DNA of 45,944 nucleotides from an uncultured Paracoccaceae bacterium. GTDB lineage: Bacteria; Pseudomonadota; Alphaproteobacteria; Rhodobacterales; Rhodobacteraceae. The number at the start of each line of letters is the position of its first letter. The stretch's first letter is position 1. The stretch is from positions 1 through 45,944 of the forward strand of contig CANMPL010000014.1 in assembly GCA_947499715.1 (NCBI GenBank), in the 5' to 3' direction. Below the pieces are notes generated by a model that had not been told where the DNA came from, did not search any database, and was given only the letters and a program-made list of their open reading frames with translations. Both the position numbers and the translations under genes were made by a program. This document shows, piece by piece, positions 10,220-43,368 of the stretch.

Positions 10220-10682
10220 AAAAGAACGGCTCCGCCCCGCGTTGATCCATCAACCCCAGCACTGACGTCTCATCAATCCGACGGAACACATCGCAGATCG
10301 GCTTGGCATCATAGATCATCGTCGCCGACACGACCCCGCGATGTTCCATCATCCGCAAGCGCGCCTGCGGTTTGCGCGTCGCGATCAGCGGTCGGATCAG
10401 TGGAAAGGTCAGCCGCACAAGGGCAGGGGGCAGATGCACCACCAACCCCAACGGCAAAAGCGACGGGTTCACCGCCACGCGCCCCTCTGCCCCGTGCAAA
10501 AGCGGATGCACATCCTCCGCCCCGTCAAACGCCTTGCCCCACCAGCCTGCTGCTGGCAGCAAGGGGTCCATCTTATGCCCTGTCGGCACAACCTCACCCC
10601 GCCAGCGGCCCGACATCTCGTCTACGGTGGCCGGGCCCAACCCGTCAAACCACGCCAAAGCATCTGCCGGGGTCATTCCCAT
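10191..10682 (-). CDS. GXWXG / DUF4334 domain protein
   Basis: This 163-aa protein has the N-terminal GXWXG domain (EMSGRWRGEVVPTGHKMD, WWGKAF) followed by DUF4334 (RGVVSATMIYDAKPICDVFRRID, lipocalin-like end). No enzyme activity is established for the family. Its start lies 10 nt inside the end of the upstream oxygenase gene, so the two are a translational unit. Confidence 0.85.
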   Translation of the reverse strand: MGMTPADALAWFDGLGPATVDEMSGRWRGEVVPTGHKMDPLLPAAGWWGKAFDGAEDVHPLLHGAEGRVAVNPSLLPLGLVVHLPPALVRLTFPLIRPLIATRKPQARLRMMEHRGVVSATMIYDAKPICDVFRRIDETSVLGLMDQRGAEPFFFKLTRAGSG

Positions 10683-34881: not shown

Positions 34882-35817
34882 TCACACCAGGTCCCACGCT
34901 ATGCGGAGGCCTTGAAAGCCGGTACTGCTTTCAGGTGAATTGCCCGTGCGCGCCGCAATTCTGTAGCGGTAGCAATAACTCTTATGGCACAGAGCCGATC
35001 CGCCCTTGAGCAATTTGAAACCCTTCATTTGGGTCAGCTTTTCTTTGACGCTCTTCTTGAGGGAATTGACTTTGAATGGCTCCGCCGTCCATTCCCAGTT
35101 GTTGCCAACCATGTTGTAAAGGCCAAAGCCATTGGGTTGGAATGACATTGCCGGGGCCAAACCGGTATATCCATCACCACCGGTGTTGGCGTTGGGAAAG
35201 GCGCCCTGCCAGATGTTGCAGGGGAAATGATCGGTGTCATTAGGTTCCCGCGCACCCCACGGAAAAGGCACATCGCCCAAACCGCCACGTGCGGCATGTT
35301 CCCATTCTGCCTCTGTCGGAAGACGCCCGCCGACCCATGCAGCATAGGCAAGCGCATCGTTCCAGGACAGGTGAACGACGGGCAGGTCCGGAGCATCTTT
35401 TTCCGTATCTTGGCCGCAACCGTTAGGGTCGCGCCAATTGGCCCCATCGACCTTGCGCCACCATTCCAGGCCAGCGATCCCTTCGGTTTTGAGGTGATCA
35501 GGAACCTGCGACCAAAACACAAACGACCAGCCGAACTGCTCTGCCTCTGTCCGATAGTCTGTGGCCTGCACGAAGCGCGCAAAGGACTGGTTTGTGACGC
35601 ATGTCTTGCCCAACCGAAACGGCTTTATGCGCCGTTTGCGCAGGGGGCCTTCGCCGTCCAGGGGAATACAGGGCGTATCCGTGCCGATGAGGGCAATGCC
35701 GCCGGGGATATCGACGGTATCGGCCTCAAGATCCCCTTCGCTGCAGGCATCAGGGAGAGGCGCGACGCCGCCGTTGGTCCCGGATGGGCGGCTCGGTGTG
35801 CAGCACCCTTTGGTCAC
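34882..35817 (-). CDS. Formylglycine-generating enzyme (sulfatase-activating)
   Basis: This 311-aa FGE-sulfatase-domain protein oxidises the active-site Cys of sulfatases to formylglycine. It keeps the catalytic cysteine pair in CHKSYC (Cys277 and Cys282), the same motif as the aerobic human and Streptomyces enzymes, plus the family core GGRLPTEAEWEHAARGG and YNMVGNNWEWTAEPF. No signal peptide is present, so it acts in the cytoplasm. It starts with GTG at 35817 in a 4-nt overlap with the sulfatase gene, a direct link between enzyme and client. Confidence 0.94.
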   Translation of the reverse strand: MTKGCCTPSRPSGTNGGVAPLPDACSEGDLEADTVDIPGGIALIGTDTPCIPLDGEGPLRKRRIKPFRLGKTCVTNQSFARFVQATDYRTEAEQFGWSFVFWSQVPDHLKTEGIAGLEWWRKVDGANWRDPNGCGQDTEKDAPDLPVVHLSWNDALAYAAWVGGRLPTEAEWEHAARGGLGDVPFPWGAREPNDTDHFPCNIWQGAFPNANTGGDGYTGLAPAMSFQPNGFGLYNMVGNNWEWTAEPFKVNSLKKSVKEKLTQMKGFKLLKGGSALCHKSYCYRYRIAARTGNSPESSTGFQGLRIAWDLV

Positions 35818-37337
35818 GCGGTTCCGACCGGCACCTGATCGGGCAGAACGTCGCTTGGGCGGCTGACGATATAGCTTTTCAACTTGGCCTGAACCTCGGC
35901 GGCTTCCGGCGCATCGAAGAGGTTCACCATCTCATCGGGGTCTGCGTCTAGATCGTACATCTCACCCGCGCCTGAAATCAGATCCAGGGTAAGCTTATGG
36001 GTGCGTGTGCGGACTGTGCGTAGTTCCAAAGCCACCCCGACGCGCCCGGGCAAGAGCCCCCATTCGTTGCGCGCAAAGTCGCGGGTCGCGTCCCCTTCGA
36101 TCAGCGGGCGCAGGCTTTCACCATGTTGGGTCAATTGCGGGTCCGCGCCGCCGTAGTCAAAGAATGTCGGCCCAAGATCGAGGGTCGACACCGGTTCATT
36201 TACGACTTTACCAGCAGGCACGCCGGGCCCTTTGACGATCATCGGCACTTTCAACAGCCCCTCATAGTGCATCGGCCCTTTCAGGATCAGCCCGTGGTCG
36301 CCCATCCAATCGCCGTGGTCCGAGATATAGATGACGATGGTGTTTTCGTCCAAGCCTTCTTCCAGCAGCGTGTTCATGATCCGACCGACCTGATGGTCGA
36401 TAAAGGCGATCTGGCCGTAGGTATTGGCGATAATTTCGCGCAATTGTTCATCTGTCTGGGGCGGGATGCGGCTGTAGGCTTTGCGGATGTCGGCAAATTT
36501 GGGATCAGCCGGTTCGCCCTCCATCGCGGCTTCGTGCCACCACGGTTTACCCGCGTAAGACCGCGTGCGGTTCTCGGGCAGATCAACCTCGGCCGGATCA
36601 TGCAGGCGCGACCAAGGCTCTGGGCAGTCGAAGGGGTGGTGCGGGTCAGGAAAACTGACCCATGTGCAAAACGGTTTGTCATCGTCGCGGCCATGGCGCA
36701 GCCATTCAATCGCGCGGTCGGCTGTCCACGGTGTGTTGTGGTAAGCCACAGGGAGTTTTGAGTGCCAGACTTGCGCGGCCCCTTTGGTGTCGCCTGCGTT
36801 TTCCCACATCAGTTTGGTGCGCGCGTCGCCTTTGCCGTCGCGATGGTAGAACCGTTCATAATGCTGGCCTGCGGGTGGCTTTTCGGGCGCCCACCAGTTG
36901 TGACCGACGAGCATCAATTCAACATGCTCGAACCCCATATAGGGGCCGTTCCATGTGTCTGGGTAGCTTGCAGAAGAGAGCAAGCATTCCGGCGTGCCGG
37001 TGGGTTCATAGGTGTGGTAGGTGGAAAAATGCGCCTTGCCGAAATAGCTGGTCTGATAGCCCGCCGCCGCCATGGCCCCCGCAAACCCTTTTTCACCGAT
37101 CTCGGGCGGCAGGTCGATCCCGTTGTCATGAACCCCGTGCGTGCGGCAGAGTTGCCCCGTCAGGATGGATGCCCGCGCAGGCTGACAGACGACCGAAGGT
37201 GTAATGCAGGCGTCAAACACCGTCCCGTCGGCGGCCAGTTGATCCAGATGCGGCGTCTTGATCTTGCGGCCCTTGAAGCCCATGAAATCAGCACGGTGTT
37301 GATCGGCAGAGATCAGGATGATGTTGGGTCGGCTCAT
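35814..37337 (-). CDS. Cytoplasmic type I sulfatase (formylglycine type)
   Basis: This 507-aa sulfatase carries the modification motif C-Q-P-A-R with Cys51 in SVVCQPARASILTG, metal-site regions ILISADQHRADFMG and YISDHGDWMGDHGLILKG, and substrate-side His in DPHHPFDCP. No signal peptide was seen, so the substrate must be imported. Its start overlaps the tctA stop by 4 nt and its end overlaps the FGE gene. The substrate is unknown; a small sulfate ester carrying a carboxylate is inferred from the transporter. Confidence 0.92.
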   Translation of the reverse strand: MSRPNIILISADQHRADFMGFKGRKIKTPHLDQLAADGTVFDACITPSVVCQPARASILTGQLCRTHGVHDNGIDLPPEIGEKGFAGAMAAAGYQTSYFGKAHFSTYHTYEPTGTPECLLSSASYPDTWNGPYMGFEHVELMLVGHNWWAPEKPPAGQHYERFYHRDGKGDARTKLMWENAGDTKGAAQVWHSKLPVAYHNTPWTADRAIEWLRHGRDDDKPFCTWVSFPDPHHPFDCPEPWSRLHDPAEVDLPENRTRSYAGKPWWHEAAMEGEPADPKFADIRKAYSRIPPQTDEQLREIIANTYGQIAFIDHQVGRIMNTLLEEGLDENTIVIYISDHGDWMGDHGLILKGPMHYEGLLKVPMIVKGPGVPAGKVVNEPVSTLDLGPTFFDYGGADPQLTQHGESLRPLIEGDATRDFARNEWGLLPGRVGVALELRTVRTRTHKLTLDLISGAGEMYDLDADPDEMVNLFDAPEAAEVQAKLKSYIVSRPSDVLPDQVPVGTA

Positions 37338-38926
37338 GGCGCGGTTCCTTTTGGTTTTCGCCCGGCAAAGATAATCACGGCAACGGACATGAGGATAAAG
37401 ATCAGGGCGATGGGGTTGTTGAACAGAAAAAACGGATCGTTGCCCGTGGCCGAATAGGCCTGACGCGCCGTTTCCTCGAGGCTGCGGCCAAGGATGAAGG
37501 CGATCACAAATGGCAGCGGTGATATGGTCAGCACCCGCATGACGTAGCCCAAGACGCCAAAGCCAAGTGCGAACCAGATCGCCTCGAGCCGGGTTTCTTG
37601 CACGTAGATCGCGGTGAGGGTCAGCAGCAGGACGGCGGGCAGCAGCAGCGTTTTGGGGATGTTGATCATAAACCCCATCGAGCGCATGAAGACACCGCCA
37701 ATGGTCCAGTTGAACAGGTTGGCGATCGTCATGCAGGTGAACAGGCCAAACGCGATGACAAGTTCGGGGTTCACGACATCGGGCGAAAAGCGGAACACAG
37801 CGGGGCCCGGGTTGAATCCGCCGATGGATTCAGCGGCCAAAATCAGGAACACAGCCGCCGCATTGCCGGGAATGCCGAGCGACAGCACCGGGATCAGGTT
37901 GGCGCCGGAAACGGCACTGTTGGCAGCCTCTGTCGCGGCGATGCCTTCGGGTGTTCCGTCCCCAAAACTGGGCGCGTCGGCGGCTTTCGTTTTTTGGTGG
38001 CGGGCGCGCCCGACGGAATAGCCAAGGGTCGCCGCCAACGTCGAGCCGACGCCGGGCAGCGCGCCAATCGCGGTGCCAATAAAGGCCGAACGTGCGATGA
38101 ACGGAAACAGCCGTTTGATGTCGGGCCAGTGCAGTTTCTGGTCGCCGGACTGCGTGGGGACTTTGGCGGGCCTGTTCTGTCCCGTTTCGCGCCACGCCTC
38201 TTCCAACTCCTTGAACACAGCCCCGATAATCAACACCCCAAGGACGGCTGTTGTGATGGGGAATCCGCGCGAAAGACCGTCTGCCCCCATCGACAGACGA
38301 GGGTAGAAATCCTCGCCCGTGCCGACATAGACGGCCAGCAGACCTAACCCGATTGAAATGAGGCCCTTGCCCGCCGATCCGCCGATGACCGCGGCAATGA
38401 AGCTGAGCGAGAGGATCAAAAGGCCGGTCTTTTCAGGCAGATCGAGGTAGCTTTCGACGATGATCGCAAGGAAGGGCGCGCAGACGAACAGCACGATGTC
38501 CGAGAAGGTATCGCCAGAGGCCGAGGAGAAATGCGCAACACGCAGCGCCTTTTTCGCCTGACCTTTTTGAGCCATCGGAAAGCCGTCCAATGTGGTCATG
38601 AAGGCGTCGGGCGTGCCGGGGGTGTTGAACAGGATCGCAGGCACCGCGCCGCCGATGGTGGCACCTTTCATGATGCCAATCAAAAAGCCCAAGACGGGCA
38701 GCAGCGCATCGGGCGAATAGCCGAACACCGAGATCAGGATCGGCAGGGAAATGGCCATGGCGAAGGGTCCAGCCAGCCCCGGTGTGGCCCCAACGACGAT
38801 ACCAAACAGGAAGCCGGACAAGACCATCATCACCGTGATCGAGATGGACATGCCCAAGATGCTAAAGGCCTCGGGGCCCAAAAAGACAGCCTGAACGCCA
38901 AGCCAGATATACCCCAGAATGTCCAT
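37334..38926 (-). CDS. tctA: Tripartite tricarboxylate transporter large permease TctA
   Basis: This 530-aa permease has about 12 membrane segments and the TctA landmarks GIVVGATPGLAGPFAMAISLP, GGAVPAILFNTPGTPDAFMTTLDGFPMAQKGQA, and LGIPGNAAAVFLILAAE. With TctB it imports carboxylates in a secondary, receptor-fed way. It shares one base with the tctB stop and overlaps the sulfatase gene downstream. Confidence 0.94.
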   Translation of the reverse strand: MDILGYIWLGVQAVFLGPEAFSILGMSISITVMMVLSGFLFGIVVGATPGLAGPFAMAISLPILISVFGYSPDALLPVLGFLIGIMKGATIGGAVPAILFNTPGTPDAFMTTLDGFPMAQKGQAKKALRVAHFSSASGDTFSDIVLFVCAPFLAIIVESYLDLPEKTGLLILSLSFIAAVIGGSAGKGLISIGLGLLAVYVGTGEDFYPRLSMGADGLSRGFPITTAVLGVLIIGAVFKELEEAWRETGQNRPAKVPTQSGDQKLHWPDIKRLFPFIARSAFIGTAIGALPGVGSTLAATLGYSVGRARHQKTKAADAPSFGDGTPEGIAATEAANSAVSGANLIPVLSLGIPGNAAAVFLILAAESIGGFNPGPAVFRFSPDVVNPELVIAFGLFTCMTIANLFNWTIGGVFMRSMGFMINIPKTLLLPAVLLLTLTAIYVQETRLEAIWFALGFGVLGYVMRVLTISPLPFVIAFILGRSLEETARQAYSATGNDPFFLFNNPIALIFILMSVAVIIFAGRKPKGTAP

Positions 38927-39492
38927 CAGACATCCCCGTTGGGCGGCAAGAGCAAGTCTTCGAATGGAAGATCAAACACGGCAATCAAGACGACGGCCGT
39001 GATGATGCCTGTCAAAACGGCGCGGCGCGTCAGCTTGCGTTCGACGACCGAAACGAGCCCGGCAACCATGATGGCGCCGCCCAGGAAGAACCCGATGTGT
39101 TTCCAGCCCGGCGTGGCGCGCAGCAGGCGGTATTCCATCGGCTCTGCCCGAAAGAGATTGGCGATTTCGACAGCGGCAGGTCCGACAAATCGCATGATCG
39201 CAAGGCCGACAATGACGAGTGCAGTCAGGCTGGCCACGAACTTGACTTGAGTTCTGCTTATGGTGGGTTGATCGGCCACCTTTCGTTCGAAAACCGACAC
39301 CACCAGACCGCCCAAAAGGATAAAGCCTGCGGCGACCGTTGGGGCCAGCGCGTCGCCGATAACGAACTTGCCGCGTGCTTTTTCAACGATGCCGGTCTTT
39401 GTGTCCAACGGGATCCAGATGAAAATCAGCAGCAAAGCGAAGGCGACGCAAAGCAGCCCAAGATAAAGGTTGGATCGTGACTGACCTTGCAT
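38926..39492 (-). CDS. tctB: Tripartite tricarboxylate transporter small permease TctB
   Basis: This 188-aa protein has four hydrophobic segments (about 10-28, 50-68, 88-108 and 135-185) in the usual TctB layout. I chose the ATG at 39492 because AAGGGGGG lies 7 nt upstream; the frame is open further. It lies between tctC and tctA. Confidence 0.85.
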   Translation of the reverse strand: MQGQSRSNLYLGLLCVAFALLLIFIWIPLDTKTGIVEKARGKFVIGDALAPTVAAGFILLGGLVVSVFERKVADQPTISRTQVKFVASLTALVIVGLAIMRFVGPAAVEIANLFRAEPMEYRLLRATPGWKHIGFFLGGAIMVAGLVSVVERKLTRRAVLTGIITAVVLIAVFDLPFEDLLLPPNGDV

Positions 39493-39516
39493 GTGACGTC
39501 CCCCCTTGATGCACCA

Positions 39517-39540
39517 CGGGCGCCCCGTTTGGGACGCCCG
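39517..39540 (-). other. Hairpin between tctC and tctB
   Basis: On the minus strand CGGGCGTCCC pairs with GGGGCGCCCG (one G-U pair) across AAAC, directly after the tctC stop. Placement mirrors the hairpin after aapJ and probably stabilises tctC mRNA so the receptor is made in excess. Confidence 0.6.
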
Positions 39541-39553
39541 CAAAGACGTGGAT

Positions 39554-40504
39554 TTATTCCGACGCCGCTTCGATCAGGGCTTCAGAGTCGGCAAAGTCGC
39601 GCATCACCAACGCATCAAGCTCTGCCCCTTGGATGTTCATTGGTCCCCCAAACGCACGGGCGATCAACGCGCCAACCTCTGTTTCAGGGTCAGATGTGAC
39701 TTCGGTGATTGCCGCAGCGATTGCGTTGCGCGCGTCTTCCGGCATGCCCCCTGGTCCTGCGAACAAAAAGACCGCAGCTGCATCAAAATCGACACCCAGA
39801 TCCGGAAGCGTTGGCGCATCAGGTGTTTGGGTCAGTGGTTGCGCCATCGCCGACGCGAGGTTCACAAGGTCGCCAGCTTCAACGCCCGGCGCTTGGATCC
39901 CGGCCATAAAGCCCACATCCATGTCGCCCGCAGTCACGCCATTCAACACCGCACGCCCGCCTTGAACGGAGATGATATTCAGATCAATCCCCTGCTCTTT
40001 GCCCAGAAGATAGGCAATTTCACCCAAGCGTTGGCTCATTACGCCAAAGCGGATGTCTTGTCCGCCTTTGGCTGCTGCAACCATGTCATCAAATGATGTC
40101 CAGCCCGTAGCGGCACCGGCGACGACGCCCATCTGGGTGCCTGCTGTCGTGACGATCGGGGTGAAGTCCTCCGGTGTGAGGCCAATATCCGCCGTGTAAA
40201 GGTTATAACCCAACGACTCTGTGACGATCATGCCAATGACCGTGCCGTCATTGGGTTCGTCCTGCATTTCAACCAGCAGGTTGACGCCCCCTTTGCCGGT
40301 GACTTGTTCGGGAATGAATTCCCAACCCAAGCGGTTCTCAAGCTCGGTGGCGATCAGGCGGGCTTGCGTATCCGCGCCACCGCCTGCAGCGAAGGCGATC
40401 ATCAGCTTGATTGGACCCGGCGGCGTCCATTCCTGAGCTTGAACGGACATAGCAGATGCTGCAATTGAGATGGCCGCGGCGGCGGCGGTGAACAGGTTTT
40501 TCAT
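39554..40504 (-). CDS. tctC: Tripartite tricarboxylate transporter substrate-binding protein TctC
   Basis: This 316-aa periplasmic receptor has a signal peptide (1-23, ending SVQA) and the TctC/Bug fold: GPIKLMIAFAAGGGADTQARLIATELE, GKGGVNLLVEM, FTPIVTTAGTQMGVV. Bug receptors bind carboxylates through water-bridged loops. I chose the ATG at 40504 because GGAGG lies 6 nt upstream. It leads the minus-strand operon opposite marR. Confidence 0.92.
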   Translation of the reverse strand: MKNLFTAAAAAISIAASAMSVQAQEWTPPGPIKLMIAFAAGGGADTQARLIATELENRLGWEFIPEQVTGKGGVNLLVEMQDEPNDGTVIGMIVTESLGYNLYTADIGLTPEDFTPIVTTAGTQMGVVAGAATGWTSFDDMVAAAKGGQDIRFGVMSQRLGEIAYLLGKEQGIDLNIISVQGGRAVLNGVTAGDMDVGFMAGIQAPGVEAGDLVNLASAMAQPLTQTPDAPTLPDLGVDFDAAAVFLFAGPGGMPEDARNAIAAAITEVTSDPETEVGALIARAFGGPMNIQGAELDALVMRDFADSEALIEAASE

Positions 40505-40541
40505 AGAATCCTCCCAGATATGCGAGCAGGAAGTCACAAGA

Positions 40542-40590
40542 TAGTTGTCCCGTCAACCATTTAGTTGTCACGTCAACTAAATGGTTGACG
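40542..40590. promoter_or_regulatory. MarR operator palindrome between tctC and marR
   Basis: A perfect palindrome with 17-bp arms (40551-40567 and 40574-40590) around the 6-bp centre TCACGT. The core TAGTTG-TCACGT-CAACTA has a typical MarR-site shape. A second copy of the half-pattern, AGTTGTCCCGTCAAC, overlaps at 40542-40556. It lies 37 bp before the tctC ATG and about 40 bp before the marR ATG, so one regulator bound here could control both directions. Confidence 0.85.
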
Positions 40591-40631
40591 GACCTCTGCC
40601 TTGTGGTGATGGTTGAGCCAAGAGGTGGAAT

Positions 40632-41105
40632 ATGAATGACGAGACCCCAAAAGACTTCAACCCGCAGCTGGCCCAGCTCAGCAACTTCTTAACCTACCGT
40701 ATTTCGCGCCTGCACCAAAAGCTGAACACGCAGGCGAGCAAGATTTTGAGCGAATCCGTCGGGGTGACCCTGAACCAATGGCGCATGATTGCGTTTATCG
40801 GAGGGGCCGGGAACGTCACCGCCTCCAAGCTGGTCAGATATACCGCGATGGATAAGGGACTTGTCAGTCGCAACGTGAAGTCACTGATCGAAAGCGGGCT
40901 TGTCGCGTCGTCAGAGCACGCAAAGGACAATAGGGTGCATGTTCTGAGCCTGTCGCCCGAGGGTCAAAGGGTTTTCGACACGGCCCTGCCCATGATGCGT
41001 CGCCGTCAGGAAAACCTGCGATCAGATCTGAGCGACGACGACGTCGCCAACCTGCGCCGGATGCTGGATATTCTGGAAATTGCCGCAGACGATATCGTCA
41101 TCTGA
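40632..41105 (+). CDS. MarR-family transcriptional regulator
   Basis: This 157-aa regulator has a winged helix-turn-helix (TLNQWRMIAFIGGAGNVTASKLVRYTAMDKGLVSRNVKSLIESGLVASSE, then the wing DNRVHVLSLS) and dimerisation helices at both ends. MarR proteins usually repress a divergent gene and release it on binding a small aromatic or acidic ligand. The palindrome at 40551-40590 is its likely site. Its stop overlaps the second sulfatase start by one base. Confidence 0.92.
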   Translation: MNDETPKDFNPQLAQLSNFLTYRISRLHQKLNTQASKILSESVGVTLNQWRMIAFIGGAGNVTASKLVRYTAMDKGLVSRNVKSLIESGLVASSEHAKDNRVHVLSLSPEGQRVFDTALPMMRRRQENLRSDLSDDDVANLRRMLDILEIAADDIVI

Positions 41106-42523
41106 TGCGGTCAAACCTTTTGGTCATTTTGTCCGACGAACATCAGGCCCGCGCCATGGGATGCGCAGGCCACCCCTTTGTGAAAACGCCCCACCTTGAT
41201 GCCTTGGCGGCGCGGGGCACGCGGTTCACGGATGCCTATACACCGTCGCCGATTTGTGTGCCCGCACGGGCGAGTTTCGCCACCGGACAATATGCGCACC
41301 AAAACCGCCTTTGGGACAATGCCATGCCGTATCATGGGCAAATCCCCGGCTGGGGGCATTGCTTACAGAAGGCGGGTGTTCCGGTAGAAAGCATCGGCAA
41401 GCTTCATTACCGCAAGGTGGGCGATCCTGCCGGATTTGATCGCGAACATATCCCCATGCATGTTGCGGGCGGTGTTGGGATGGTTTGGGGGTCGATCAGG
41501 GCAGAAAGTGAACGGGTTTCACCCCAGCCCCGTATGCTTGGGGAATACATTGGACCTGGCAGCAGCAAATACACCGATTACGACAGGGCGGTGACCGGTC
41601 GCGCCGAAGAATGGCTGGCGGATCATGCCGAAGATGACCGCCCGTGGTGCCTTTATGTTGGTCTTGTTGCCCCGCATTTCCCGCTTGTCGTGCCGCAAGA
41701 ATTTTTTGACCTCTACCCGCCAGAGAGCCTGCCCGCTCCCAAGATGAACCCCAAAGACGGTTATGTGCGCCATCCATGGGTTGAGCTGCAAAATGCCCAG
41801 ATGGACAGCGACGCAGCATTCACATCTGATGCGGAACGACGGGACGCGGTGGCGGCCTATTACGGGCTTGTCAGCTGGATGGACCACAACGTGGGGCGGA
41901 TCATGGTCGCGCTTGATGCGGCTGGAATGGCGGACACAACGACCGTGATCTATTCCTCCGACCATGGCGATAACCTCGGCGCGCGGGGGCTTTGGGGGAA
42001 GTCGAACCTTTATCAGGAATCTGTCTCAGTTCCTTTGATCATGGCAGGCCCCGATGTGCCTGTGGACACATGCAATACAGCGGTCGACCTGCTGGACATT
42101 TCGGCGACGATCCCGGCCCATTTCGGATTGGAATTTGAATGCGCAGGCCAGCCGCTGATGGATATTGCAGCACAGGCCGAAAACCGCGACCGTGTGATCT
42201 TTAGCGAATACCATGCAGTTGGGGCCGTTTCGGCGGCCTATATGCTGCGCAAGGGCCGCTTTAAACTCAACACCTATATTGGCTTCGCACCAGAGCTGTT
42301 TGATCTGGTCGCTGACCCGGAAGAGGCCACCAATCTCGCGTCCAATCCGGCCTATGCGGATGTGATGACCGAACTTACATCGGAGCTTCACAAGATCGTT
42401 GACCCCCAAGCAACCAATGCGCAGGCCTTTGCGGATCAGGCCGCCTTGATCGAATACCATGGCGGCAAAGACGCGGCATTGAAACTTGGCGCGCCCGGGG
42501 CGACACCCCCGCCGACCACATGA
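41105..42523 (+). CDS. Second cytoplasmic type I sulfatase
   Basis: This 472-aa sulfatase has the C-V-P-A-R motif with Cys51 in SPICVPARASFATG, metal-site regions LVILSDEHQARAMG and YSSDHGDNLGARGLWGK, and the substrate side VGLVAPHFPLV. It resembles choline-sulfatase-type enzymes only in general features. No signal peptide is present. It differs clearly from the 35814 sulfatase, so it is not a recent duplicate. It is cotranscribed with marR and overlaps the next gene by 4 nt. Confidence 0.92.
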   Translation: MRSNLLVILSDEHQARAMGCAGHPFVKTPHLDALAARGTRFTDAYTPSPICVPARASFATGQYAHQNRLWDNAMPYHGQIPGWGHCLQKAGVPVESIGKLHYRKVGDPAGFDREHIPMHVAGGVGMVWGSIRAESERVSPQPRMLGEYIGPGSSKYTDYDRAVTGRAEEWLADHAEDDRPWCLYVGLVAPHFPLVVPQEFFDLYPPESLPAPKMNPKDGYVRHPWVELQNAQMDSDAAFTSDAERRDAVAAYYGLVSWMDHNVGRIMVALDAAGMADTTTVIYSSDHGDNLGARGLWGKSNLYQESVSVPLIMAGPDVPVDTCNTAVDLLDISATIPAHFGLEFECAGQPLMDIAAQAENRDRVIFSEYHAVGAVSAAYMLRKGRFKLNTYIGFAPELFDLVADPEEATNLASNPAYADVMTELTSELHKIVDPQATNAQAFADQAALIEYHGGKDAALKLGAPGATPPPTT

Positions 42524-43368
42524 GGCTCACGGTCCTGGGATCCGGCTCTCCAGAGGCCTATGCCCGCCGCGCGTCGTCGGGGTTCCTTTTGGAAATAGGG
42601 GACGACCGGATCTTGTTGGATTGCGGCGGTGGTGTTGTGGATAATCTGATCCGCTCGGGCCGGCTGCCGCGTGACATTACGCATCTGTTCTTCACCCACT
42701 ATCACAGCGACCACATGATGGACTACGCGCGTCTTGTGCATGCGGCATGGGACGAAGGTGCGGCCCCGCTGAACGTGTTTGGACCAACGCCGTTGGCGGC
42801 CATCACCGACGGATATTTCGGCCGTAACGGCGTGCTGAACAATGACCTTCGCGCCCGGACGGAGCTGCCACAAAGCCAGCAAGTCTGGGTCGCGCGCGGC
42901 GGCACCTTACCGCGCCCCTGGCCCGCACCCGTCGTCACGGAAATCCAAGCCGGTTTTACGTACCAAGGCAGCGGTTGGAGGCTTTCAACCGCGCAGGCGA
43001 CCCACGCAGAACCGATCCTTGATTGCCTTGCCTTCGCGGTTGAGGCGGGGGGCAAGAAATTCGTCTATTCAGGGGATACAGGGCTGTGCGACGACATTGC
43101 CGACCTGTGCCGCGATGCTGATTTCCTGATCCATTGGTGCTATCGCGGGTCAGGAGAGCAGTTGCACCCAGCCACTCAGATCTACTGCCCCGATCCTGCG
43201 CAGGTGGCGGATATGGCGCAGGGTGTCGGGGTCAAACGGCTCTACCTGAGCCATTTTCGCGTCCACATGGACACTCCGGAGCACCATGAAAAGGCGCTTG
43301 TCGATCTGAGGGATCGATTTGGGAACGCAGCTGGCATTGTGGAAGACTTGGACGTTTTTGACATTTGA
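42520..43368 (+). CDS. Metallo-beta-lactamase-fold hydrolase (RNase Z/arylsulfatase-like group)
   Basis: This 282-aa protein has the metal motif HYHSDH (H60, H62, D64, H65), a distal His in ATHAEPILDC, Asp in VYSGDTGLCDD, and the final LYLSHFRVH. This is the RNase Z-like branch, which also includes zinc-dependent arylsulfatases (AtsA of Pseudoalteromonas). Its place after a formylglycine sulfatase makes a third sulfatase possible; a lactonase or esterase acting after desulfation is equally possible. It overlaps the sulfatase gene by 4 nt. Confidence 0.85.
   Translation: MRLTVLGSGSPEAYARRASSGFLLEIGDDRILLDCGGGVVDNLIRSGRLPRDITHLFFTHYHSDHMMDYARLVHAAWDEGAAPLNVFGPTPLAAITDGYFGRNGVLNNDLRARTELPQSQQVWVARGGTLPRPWPAPVVTEIQAGFTYQGSGWRLSTAQATHAEPILDCLAFAVEAGGKKFVYSGDTGLCDDIADLCRDADFLIHWCYRGSGEQLHPATQIYCPDPAQVADMAQGVGVKRLYLSHFRVHMDTPEHHEKALVDLRDRFGNAAGIVEDLDVFDI

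Follow-up and report, generated by a model that had tools for sequence, protein, structure and literature searches.

What is a tripartite tricarboxylate transporter (TTT) doing in one operon with sulfatases that appear to stay inside the cell? The bacterial sulfatases described so far mostly work on polysaccharides outside the cytoplasm. The question is raised by a gene cluster at positions 34882-43368 of contig CANMPL010000014.1 from an uncultured Paracoccaceae bacterium (assembly GCA_947499715.1; genome of 4.02 Mb in 44 contigs). The window analyzed here is the whole stretch of 45,944 nucleotides. Two divergent operons encode the TTT subunits, two putative formylglycine-type sulfatases (S1 and S2), a formylglycine-generating enzyme (FGE), a metallo-beta-lactamase (MBL)-fold hydrolase and a MarR-family regulator. 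We propose that this cluster probably imports a sulfated carboxylic acid and desulfates it within the cell. Comparison with related loci supports the view that transporter and leaderless sulfatases form a conserved pair, and the arrangement recurs far above chance.

Organization of the cluster

The minus-strand operon runs tctC, tctB, tctA, S1 and FGE, and the plus-strand operon marR, S2 and MBL. They are flanked by an amino-acid-type ABC transporter (named by eye) and a lytic transglycosylase (PF19489). The predicted features are:

34882..35817, minus strand: FGE, formylglycine-generating enzyme; GTG start, 4-nt overlap with S1; PF03781, 227.5 bits
35814..37337, minus strand: S1, putative formylglycine-type sulfatase, 507 aa, C51-Q-P-A-R; PF00884, 154.5 bits, and SGSH_C
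37334..38926, minus strand: TctA, large membrane subunit of the TTT; PF01970, 314.6 bits
38926..39492, minus strand: TctB, small membrane subunit; PF07331, 21.8 bits, below the Pfam cut-off of 29.1
39554..40504, minus strand: TctC, substrate-binding protein, ATG at 40504; PF03401, 45.9 bits
40544..40577, no strand assigned: candidate MarR operator, two near-palindromes GTTGTCNCGTCAAC starting at 40544 and 40564, 20 bp apart
40632..41105, plus strand: MarR-family regulator; PF12802, 50.1 bits
41105..42523, plus strand: S2, putative formylglycine-type sulfatase, 472 aa, C51-V-P-A-R; PF00884, 141.1 bits
42520..43368, plus strand: MBL-fold hydrolase, 282 aa, HxHxDH metal site; PF12706, 58.7 bits

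A preliminary description of the window had given this gene order, the divergent arrangement and overlaps of 1-4 nt. Pfam searches bore out the gene assignments, TctB scoring below the cut-off, and the coordinates of the open reading frames confirmed the overlaps. On the minus strand, tctB and tctA share 1 nt (38926), tctA and S1 4 nt (37334-37337), and S1 and FGE 4 nt (35814-35817); on the plus strand, marR and S2 share 1 nt (41105), and S2 and MBL 4 nt (42520-42523). The bases themselves were read at the S1/FGE and S2/MBL junctions. The start of TctB (ATG at 39492) was chosen by eye over that of a longer open reading frame (TTG at 39543). Despite the sub-threshold Pfam score, the assignment is consistent with where the gene lies and with its relatives, which occupy the corresponding place in related loci; TctA, TctB and TctC are encoded together. 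The N-terminus of TctC resembles a signal peptide (by eye). Its nearest solved relatives are TctC/Bug proteins (best E 3e-12), which are too distant for the substrate to be deduced from them.

The transporter and the sulfatases recur together

A search with S2 covered 394 family genomes, and one with an S2 profile covered a collection of named genomes, from which the best 80 of 559 relatives were taken, so that the locus counts describe close relatives. The window, 31 loci from the family search and the 80 named loci gave 95 distinct loci after 17 duplicates had been merged; L064-L072, whose S2 relatives show 43-47% identity, were inspected but left out of the counts. Genes were called with a codon-weighted caller after longest-ORF calls had given antisense artefacts; since this caller was self-made, small neighbouring genes and start sites are approximate.

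Recurrence in other genomes was one of the tests set beforehand in the preliminary description, and the cluster does recur: tctA, tctB and tctC were present in 85 of the 95 distinct S2 loci. Within these 85 loci, marR was found in 77, S1 in 64, MBL in 63 and FGE in 4. The activating enzyme, which the preliminary description had counted as part of the system, was therefore rejected as a core member and is better seen as an occasional passenger. Among the named hosts are Sulfitobacter, Shimia, Ruegeria, Tritonibacter, Phaeobacter, Hoeflea, Nitratireductor and Thalassospira, together with bins labelled Chromatiales and Granulosicoccaceae; the module occurs in many marine alphaproteobacteria as well as in two bins from the gammaproteobacteria.

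The pairing was also seen from the side of the transporter. A TctA search of the 394 genomes yielded 34 relatives of at least 58% identity, 33 of which have one of the two sulfatase genes close by: S2 was on the same stretch in 30 (compared by hand) and S1 in three (L161, L165 and L166). By our own estimate, which assumes five sulfatases per 4.2 Mb, chance would account for ∼2% per TctA gene. The next TctA relatives (54% identity; genomes G128 and G192) have a gamma-glutamyltransferase-like partner (by eye), and no sulfatase in the stretch read.

S1 and S2 are predicted cytoplasmic sulfatases

Both S1 and S2 carry the C-x-P-x-R maturation motif, which was invariant across the 17 S1 and 25 S2 sequences aligned; the placement of its cysteine at residue 51 of both proteins in the preliminary description is upheld by these alignments. 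In S2, residues C51, N72, K99, H191 and K299 align with C54, N75, K102, H201 and K309 of choline sulfatase (6fny), an enzyme whose catalytic residue roles are set out in a passage of PMC5870055. In S1, N72, K101, H103 and K353 are invariant among the 17 aligned sequences, and their equivalence to the catalytic set was judged by eye. By motif and by catalytic Asn/Lys/His/Lys residues, S1 and S2 are assigned to the type I (formylglycine) sulfatases, sulfatase family S1. The nearest solved structures are an S1-family carrageenan sulfatase (6pt4) for S1 and choline sulfatase for S2. S1 and S2 open straight into the first strand of the sulfatase fold, and a hydrophobic leader is absent from FGE, so that no signal peptide is visible by eye in any of the three, in agreement with the preliminary description.

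S2 was considered as a choline sulfatase and rejected. Against the BetC model TIGR03417 (cut-off 433.45), S2 scored 265.3 and S1 206.1, both under the cut-off, and the same genome encodes on contig 3 a separate protein that scored 896.4, beside betA-, betB- and betI-like genes (by eye). The choline-binding Glu386, tied to choline-O-sulfate hydrolysis in a passage of PMC5870055, is replaced by V, A, T or I in all 25 aligned S2 sequences. The match of S2 to 6fny extends to residue 465 of the 515 in the chain and leaves the C-terminal tail uncovered. Two invariant basic residues of S2, R103 (beside the Lys-X-His motif) and H370, stand where choline sulfatase has other residues and are candidate carboxylate binders.

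The MBL fold of the third hydrolase (PF12706) stood, and this protein may itself be a third sulfatase-like enzyme, an activity that the plain label MBL hydrolase of the preliminary description did not convey. A family profile search placed the MBL arylsulfatase 8gyg first (105 bits), followed by the uncharacterised 1zkp (98.6) and RNase Z (93.8). The single-sequence search was less clear: 8gyg came only 11th of 18, and RNase Z topped the NCBIfam models, far below the cut-off.

Maturation of the sulfatases

The FGE of the window aligns with solved FGEs across the C-H-K-S-Y-C active site (E 6e-83). It has the FGE domain and the paired active-site cysteines, and scores below the EgtB and SenA cut-offs. 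A window-like FGE (E<=1e-50) was present in 17 of 31 cluster-bearing genomes of the family vs. 62 of the other 363 (p 7e-6 by Fisher's test, without correction for relatedness); the 31 genomes are the 34 from the TctA search minus G128, G192 and G177. Eight of the 14 cluster genomes without a window-like FGE have a weaker FGE-family match, and the other six (G070, G102, G126, G181, G227 and G230) have no FGE-family match at E<=1e-10. No anSME over the cut-off was found in 17 genomes, namely those 14, the window's own, G204 and G213; G126 has a sub-threshold anSME relative (174.7 bits). Three of these six genomes without an FGE-family match are drafts, with completeness of 95% (G102), 86% (G181) and 96% (G227).

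These genomes admit three readings: an alternative route to formylglycine, an active enzyme with an unmodified cysteine or, for the drafts, a missing stretch. A passage of PMC6189696 states that the machinery for formylglycine modification in E. coli has not been identified, and cites evidence for a third maturation system; the E. coli formylglycine-making enzyme is likewise called unknown in a part of PMC5870055.

The N-terminus of the window's FGE (M-T-K-G-C-C-T-P-S-R) itself contains the C-x-P-x-R motif of its own substrates. The motif is present in three of the four cluster-linked FGEs, those of the window, L073 (CCTPSR) and L059 (CCSPSR), and is broken in L033 (CCGPPTR).

A tandem near-palindrome in the shared promoter

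The divergent region of 127 bp contains two near-palindromes of the type GTTGAC-NN-GTCAAC, and the candidate operator that they form overlaps a perfect inverted repeat (40550-40591). Promoters were compared in 56 of 81 loci (the 80 named loci and the window), in which tctC and marR were each called once, divergently and 40-260 bp apart. Removal of one identical region left 55, many of them from related genomes and hence not independent. The strict form GTTGAYNNRTCAAC occurred in 34 of the 55 regions (shuffle mean 0.01), the window's own region not being among them, and a site with at least 9 of the 12 consensus bases in 54 (shuffle mean 3.5). Site pairs spaced 19-21 bp were found in 40 of the 55 regions, with a spacing of exactly 20 in 33, and in none of 50 shuffles. 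A palindromic motif is therefore conserved between marR and the divergent gene. The loose form GTTG-N6-CAAC has further copies at 10241 and 45433 of the window.

Conservation of the tandem motif in the shared promoter suggests one MarR switch, and the simplest reading would be that two MarR dimers control both operons.

Clues to the substrate

In eight loci a 2-hydroxyacid dehydrogenase gene lies inside the operon, with gaps of 8-72 bp. The encoded proteins are LldD-like in L075 (=L033), L058 and L059, GlcD-like in L146 (=L052), L054, L057 and L060, and YdiJ-like in L063; domain searches were run on those of L058, L054, L060 and L063, and the others were assigned by similarity. The window's genome encodes such enzymes away from the cluster, with four PF02913 and four PF01070 matches over the cut-off, an LldD relative on contig 2 among them. 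The insertions suggest an O-sulfated 2-hydroxy acid as substrate. The preliminary description had put forward sulfated phenolic acids; these stay one of two live options, with the operon insertions tipping the balance slightly towards a sulfated 2-hydroxy acid. The basis for assuming that glycolic and lactic acid sulfates occur in nature is that both terms appear in the abstract of a paper on atmospheric C2-3 organosulfates (PMC12224290).

A universal-stress-family gene was also seen in 8 of the 85 complete loci. It is built into the operons of L082, L087, L089, L094, L099, L106, L132, L150 and L062 (Pfam was run on the L082 and L062 copies).

Proposed mechanism and alternative explanations

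We infer that TctC would capture a small anionic, carboxylate-bearing organosulfate in the periplasm, and that TctAB would import it intact. In the cytoplasm S2 and S1, activated by formylglycine at Cys51, would release sulfate, and the MBL protein would perform a further hydrolysis, perhaps on a related sulfate ester. MarR would bind the tandem near-palindrome between the operons and be released by substrate or product. The likeliest substrate class would be a 2-hydroxy acid O-sulfate of the lactate-sulfate or glycolate-sulfate type, the product passing to 2-hydroxyacid dehydrogenases; taken by itself, this choice of class is a possible but tentative one.

Several observations weigh against the proposal. 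Among all TctA genes of 21 genomes (that of the window plus 20 related ones) a sulfatase lay within 3 kb in 6 of 73 vs. 0.85 expected (5 of 72 without the window's TctA), a modest excess; the tight pairing is therefore specific to this TctA clade, and the idea that every TTT has a sulfatase partner was rejected. Ten S2 loci lack a complete tctABC. Some of them are on short contigs (L117 and L131), the TTT of L062, L063 and L114 is a more distant one, and in L122 and L145 no TTT was seen in the stretch examined. Neither S1 nor MBL is indispensable, since 21 and 22, respectively, of the 85 complete loci do without them. As to the substrate, six of the eight loci with an in-operon dehydrogenase belong to a single clade of ten S2 sequences, from which L075 and L063 are absent, so that these genes may mark a subfamily with a substrate of its own, and no dehydrogenase adjoins the cluster within the window. 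A ComA-family gene (phosphosulfolactate synthase, PF02679; Pfam on L079) lies near the cluster in L042, L079, L102, L105 and L109, and in all of these except L105 it takes the S1 position directly downstream of tctA. Finally, kynurenine genes adjoin the cluster in a few loci.

The last point bears on an alternative in which the mechanism is the same and the substrate is a sulfated aromatic carboxylic acid, phenolic or tryptophan-derived (e.g., sulfated hydroxykynurenine or hydroxycinnamate). Tryptophan 2,3-dioxygenase and kynureninase genes directly follow S1 in L147, kynurenine-type genes belong to a single run with the distant relative L062, and others of this kind are found close to L099, L132 and L150 (Pfam searches cover the L147 kynureninase and the L062 dioxygenase; clustering or inspection by eye identified the rest). 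An AMP-binding ligase follows in L132, and MarR regulators often sense aromatic acids. However, kynurenine genes occur in 3 of the 85 complete loci, plus L062 and L150 by eye, with none near the window, and they are convergent in L099 and several genes off in L132. We regard an aromatic substrate as somewhat unlikely. Alternatively, the TTT might import an unsulfated carboxylate, as do the TTT systems with known ligands, while the sulfatases under the shared regulator serve a separate purpose such as sulfur scavenging from another ester. Such a division of labour would suit TctA relative L162, which has TctABC and MarR and no sulfatase within ∼9 kb, a further point against our proposal. It is difficult to reconcile with the sulfatase linkage of 33 of the 34 close TctA relatives, the 4-nt tctA/S1 overlap and the shared tandem motif, and we consider it improbable.

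There is also little likelihood that S1 and S2 are formylglycine-type phosphoesterases or phosphonate monoester hydrolases. The superfamily is promiscuous, both proteins match the PehA model weakly (NF045661, 160.7 and 152.5 bits vs. a cut-off of 900), and some of the weaker PDB matches are to phosphonate monoester hydrolases. Yet the closest solved relatives are named sulfatases, and both proteins have an invariant Lys-X-His (G-K-A-H in S1 and G-K-L-H in S2), which we take to be the sulfatase form. That the whole cluster is a choline-O-sulfate system is exceedingly improbable: 6fny is the nearest solved relative of S2, but the TIGR03417 score, the lost Glu386 and the unmatched tail stand against it, and the cluster contains no bet-type gene.

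Our preferred explanation thus remains that a sulfated carboxylic acid is imported and desulfated inside the cell. If so, the recurrence of this regulated module in so many marine bacteria would mean that small dissolved organosulfates form an unrecognised pool that is consumed whole. A more far-reaching version, which we consider unlikely, is a pathway devoted to O-sulfated 2-hydroxy acids that would combine (i) an organosulfate-specific TTT importer with formylglycine and metal-dependent MBL cytoplasmic sulfatases, (ii) lactate-2-sulfatase-type genes, and (iii) in several hosts, Cys-type sulfatases matured without FGE or recognisable anSME. If this were true, such hosts would be a natural system for the missing third maturation route. 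Two questions follow that lend themselves to direct tests: from the promoter motif, what induces the switch, and from the hosts without a detected FGE, how formylglycine is made in its absence.

Other transporter-sulfatase loci

The window's genome holds a second TctC-TctB-TctA-sulfatase operon on contig 25 (L167:786-5518), with a TctA 35% identical and a sulfatase of another type (539 aa, no signal peptide visible); its presence counts in favour of our proposal. On its contig 6 (L169:5365-13601) a TRAP-TAXI-like transporter (by eye) stands beside two sulfatases and an MBL protein, which is alkylsulfatase-like by eye and has no NCBIfam match at E<=1e-40. In L078 (11749-17272) a second TctABC set, with another sulfatase and a PdxA-family protein, lies downstream of the cluster.

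Comparison with known systems

No TTT-sulfatase system of this kind was found described in the open-access literature, subscription papers lying outside the search. The solved TctC systems (TctC/Bug proteins and the terephthalate-binding protein) share the transporter type and the TctC family. The cluster differs from them in that its TctC is only distantly related and its genetic partner is a sulfatase. A lactate-2-sulfatase, reportedly described from Pseudomonas syringae GG in 1984, would by its name catalyze the reaction proposed for S1 and S2 on the O-sulfate of a 2-hydroxy acid; we know of no gene for it.

Choline-O-sulfate catabolism, as presented in parts of PMC5870055, likewise employs a formylglycine sulfatase (BetC) on a small alkyl sulfate ester, so desulfation of such esters by this enzyme type is already known. 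S2 falls in BetC's branch and keeps the catalytic residues. In contrast to that system, the cluster has a TTT, two sulfatases plus an MBL protein and a MarR regulator, and S2 has neither the choline-binding Glu nor a matching tail. In acesulfame degradation by Bosea/Chelatococcus and Shinella, according to parts of PMC11500405 and compared by description only, an anionic organosulfur compound is the target of a sulfatase that is either MBL-type or formylglycine-dependent, and an FGE encoded elsewhere is proposed as activator. That system is described there as plasmid-borne, with an amidase and TauE/SafE, and those parts name no TTT. The two sulfatase types, alternatives in acesulfame degradation, are neighbours in the cluster studied here, and the combination of a TTT importer, a set of two sulfatases plus an MBL protein and a tandem promoter motif is new to us.

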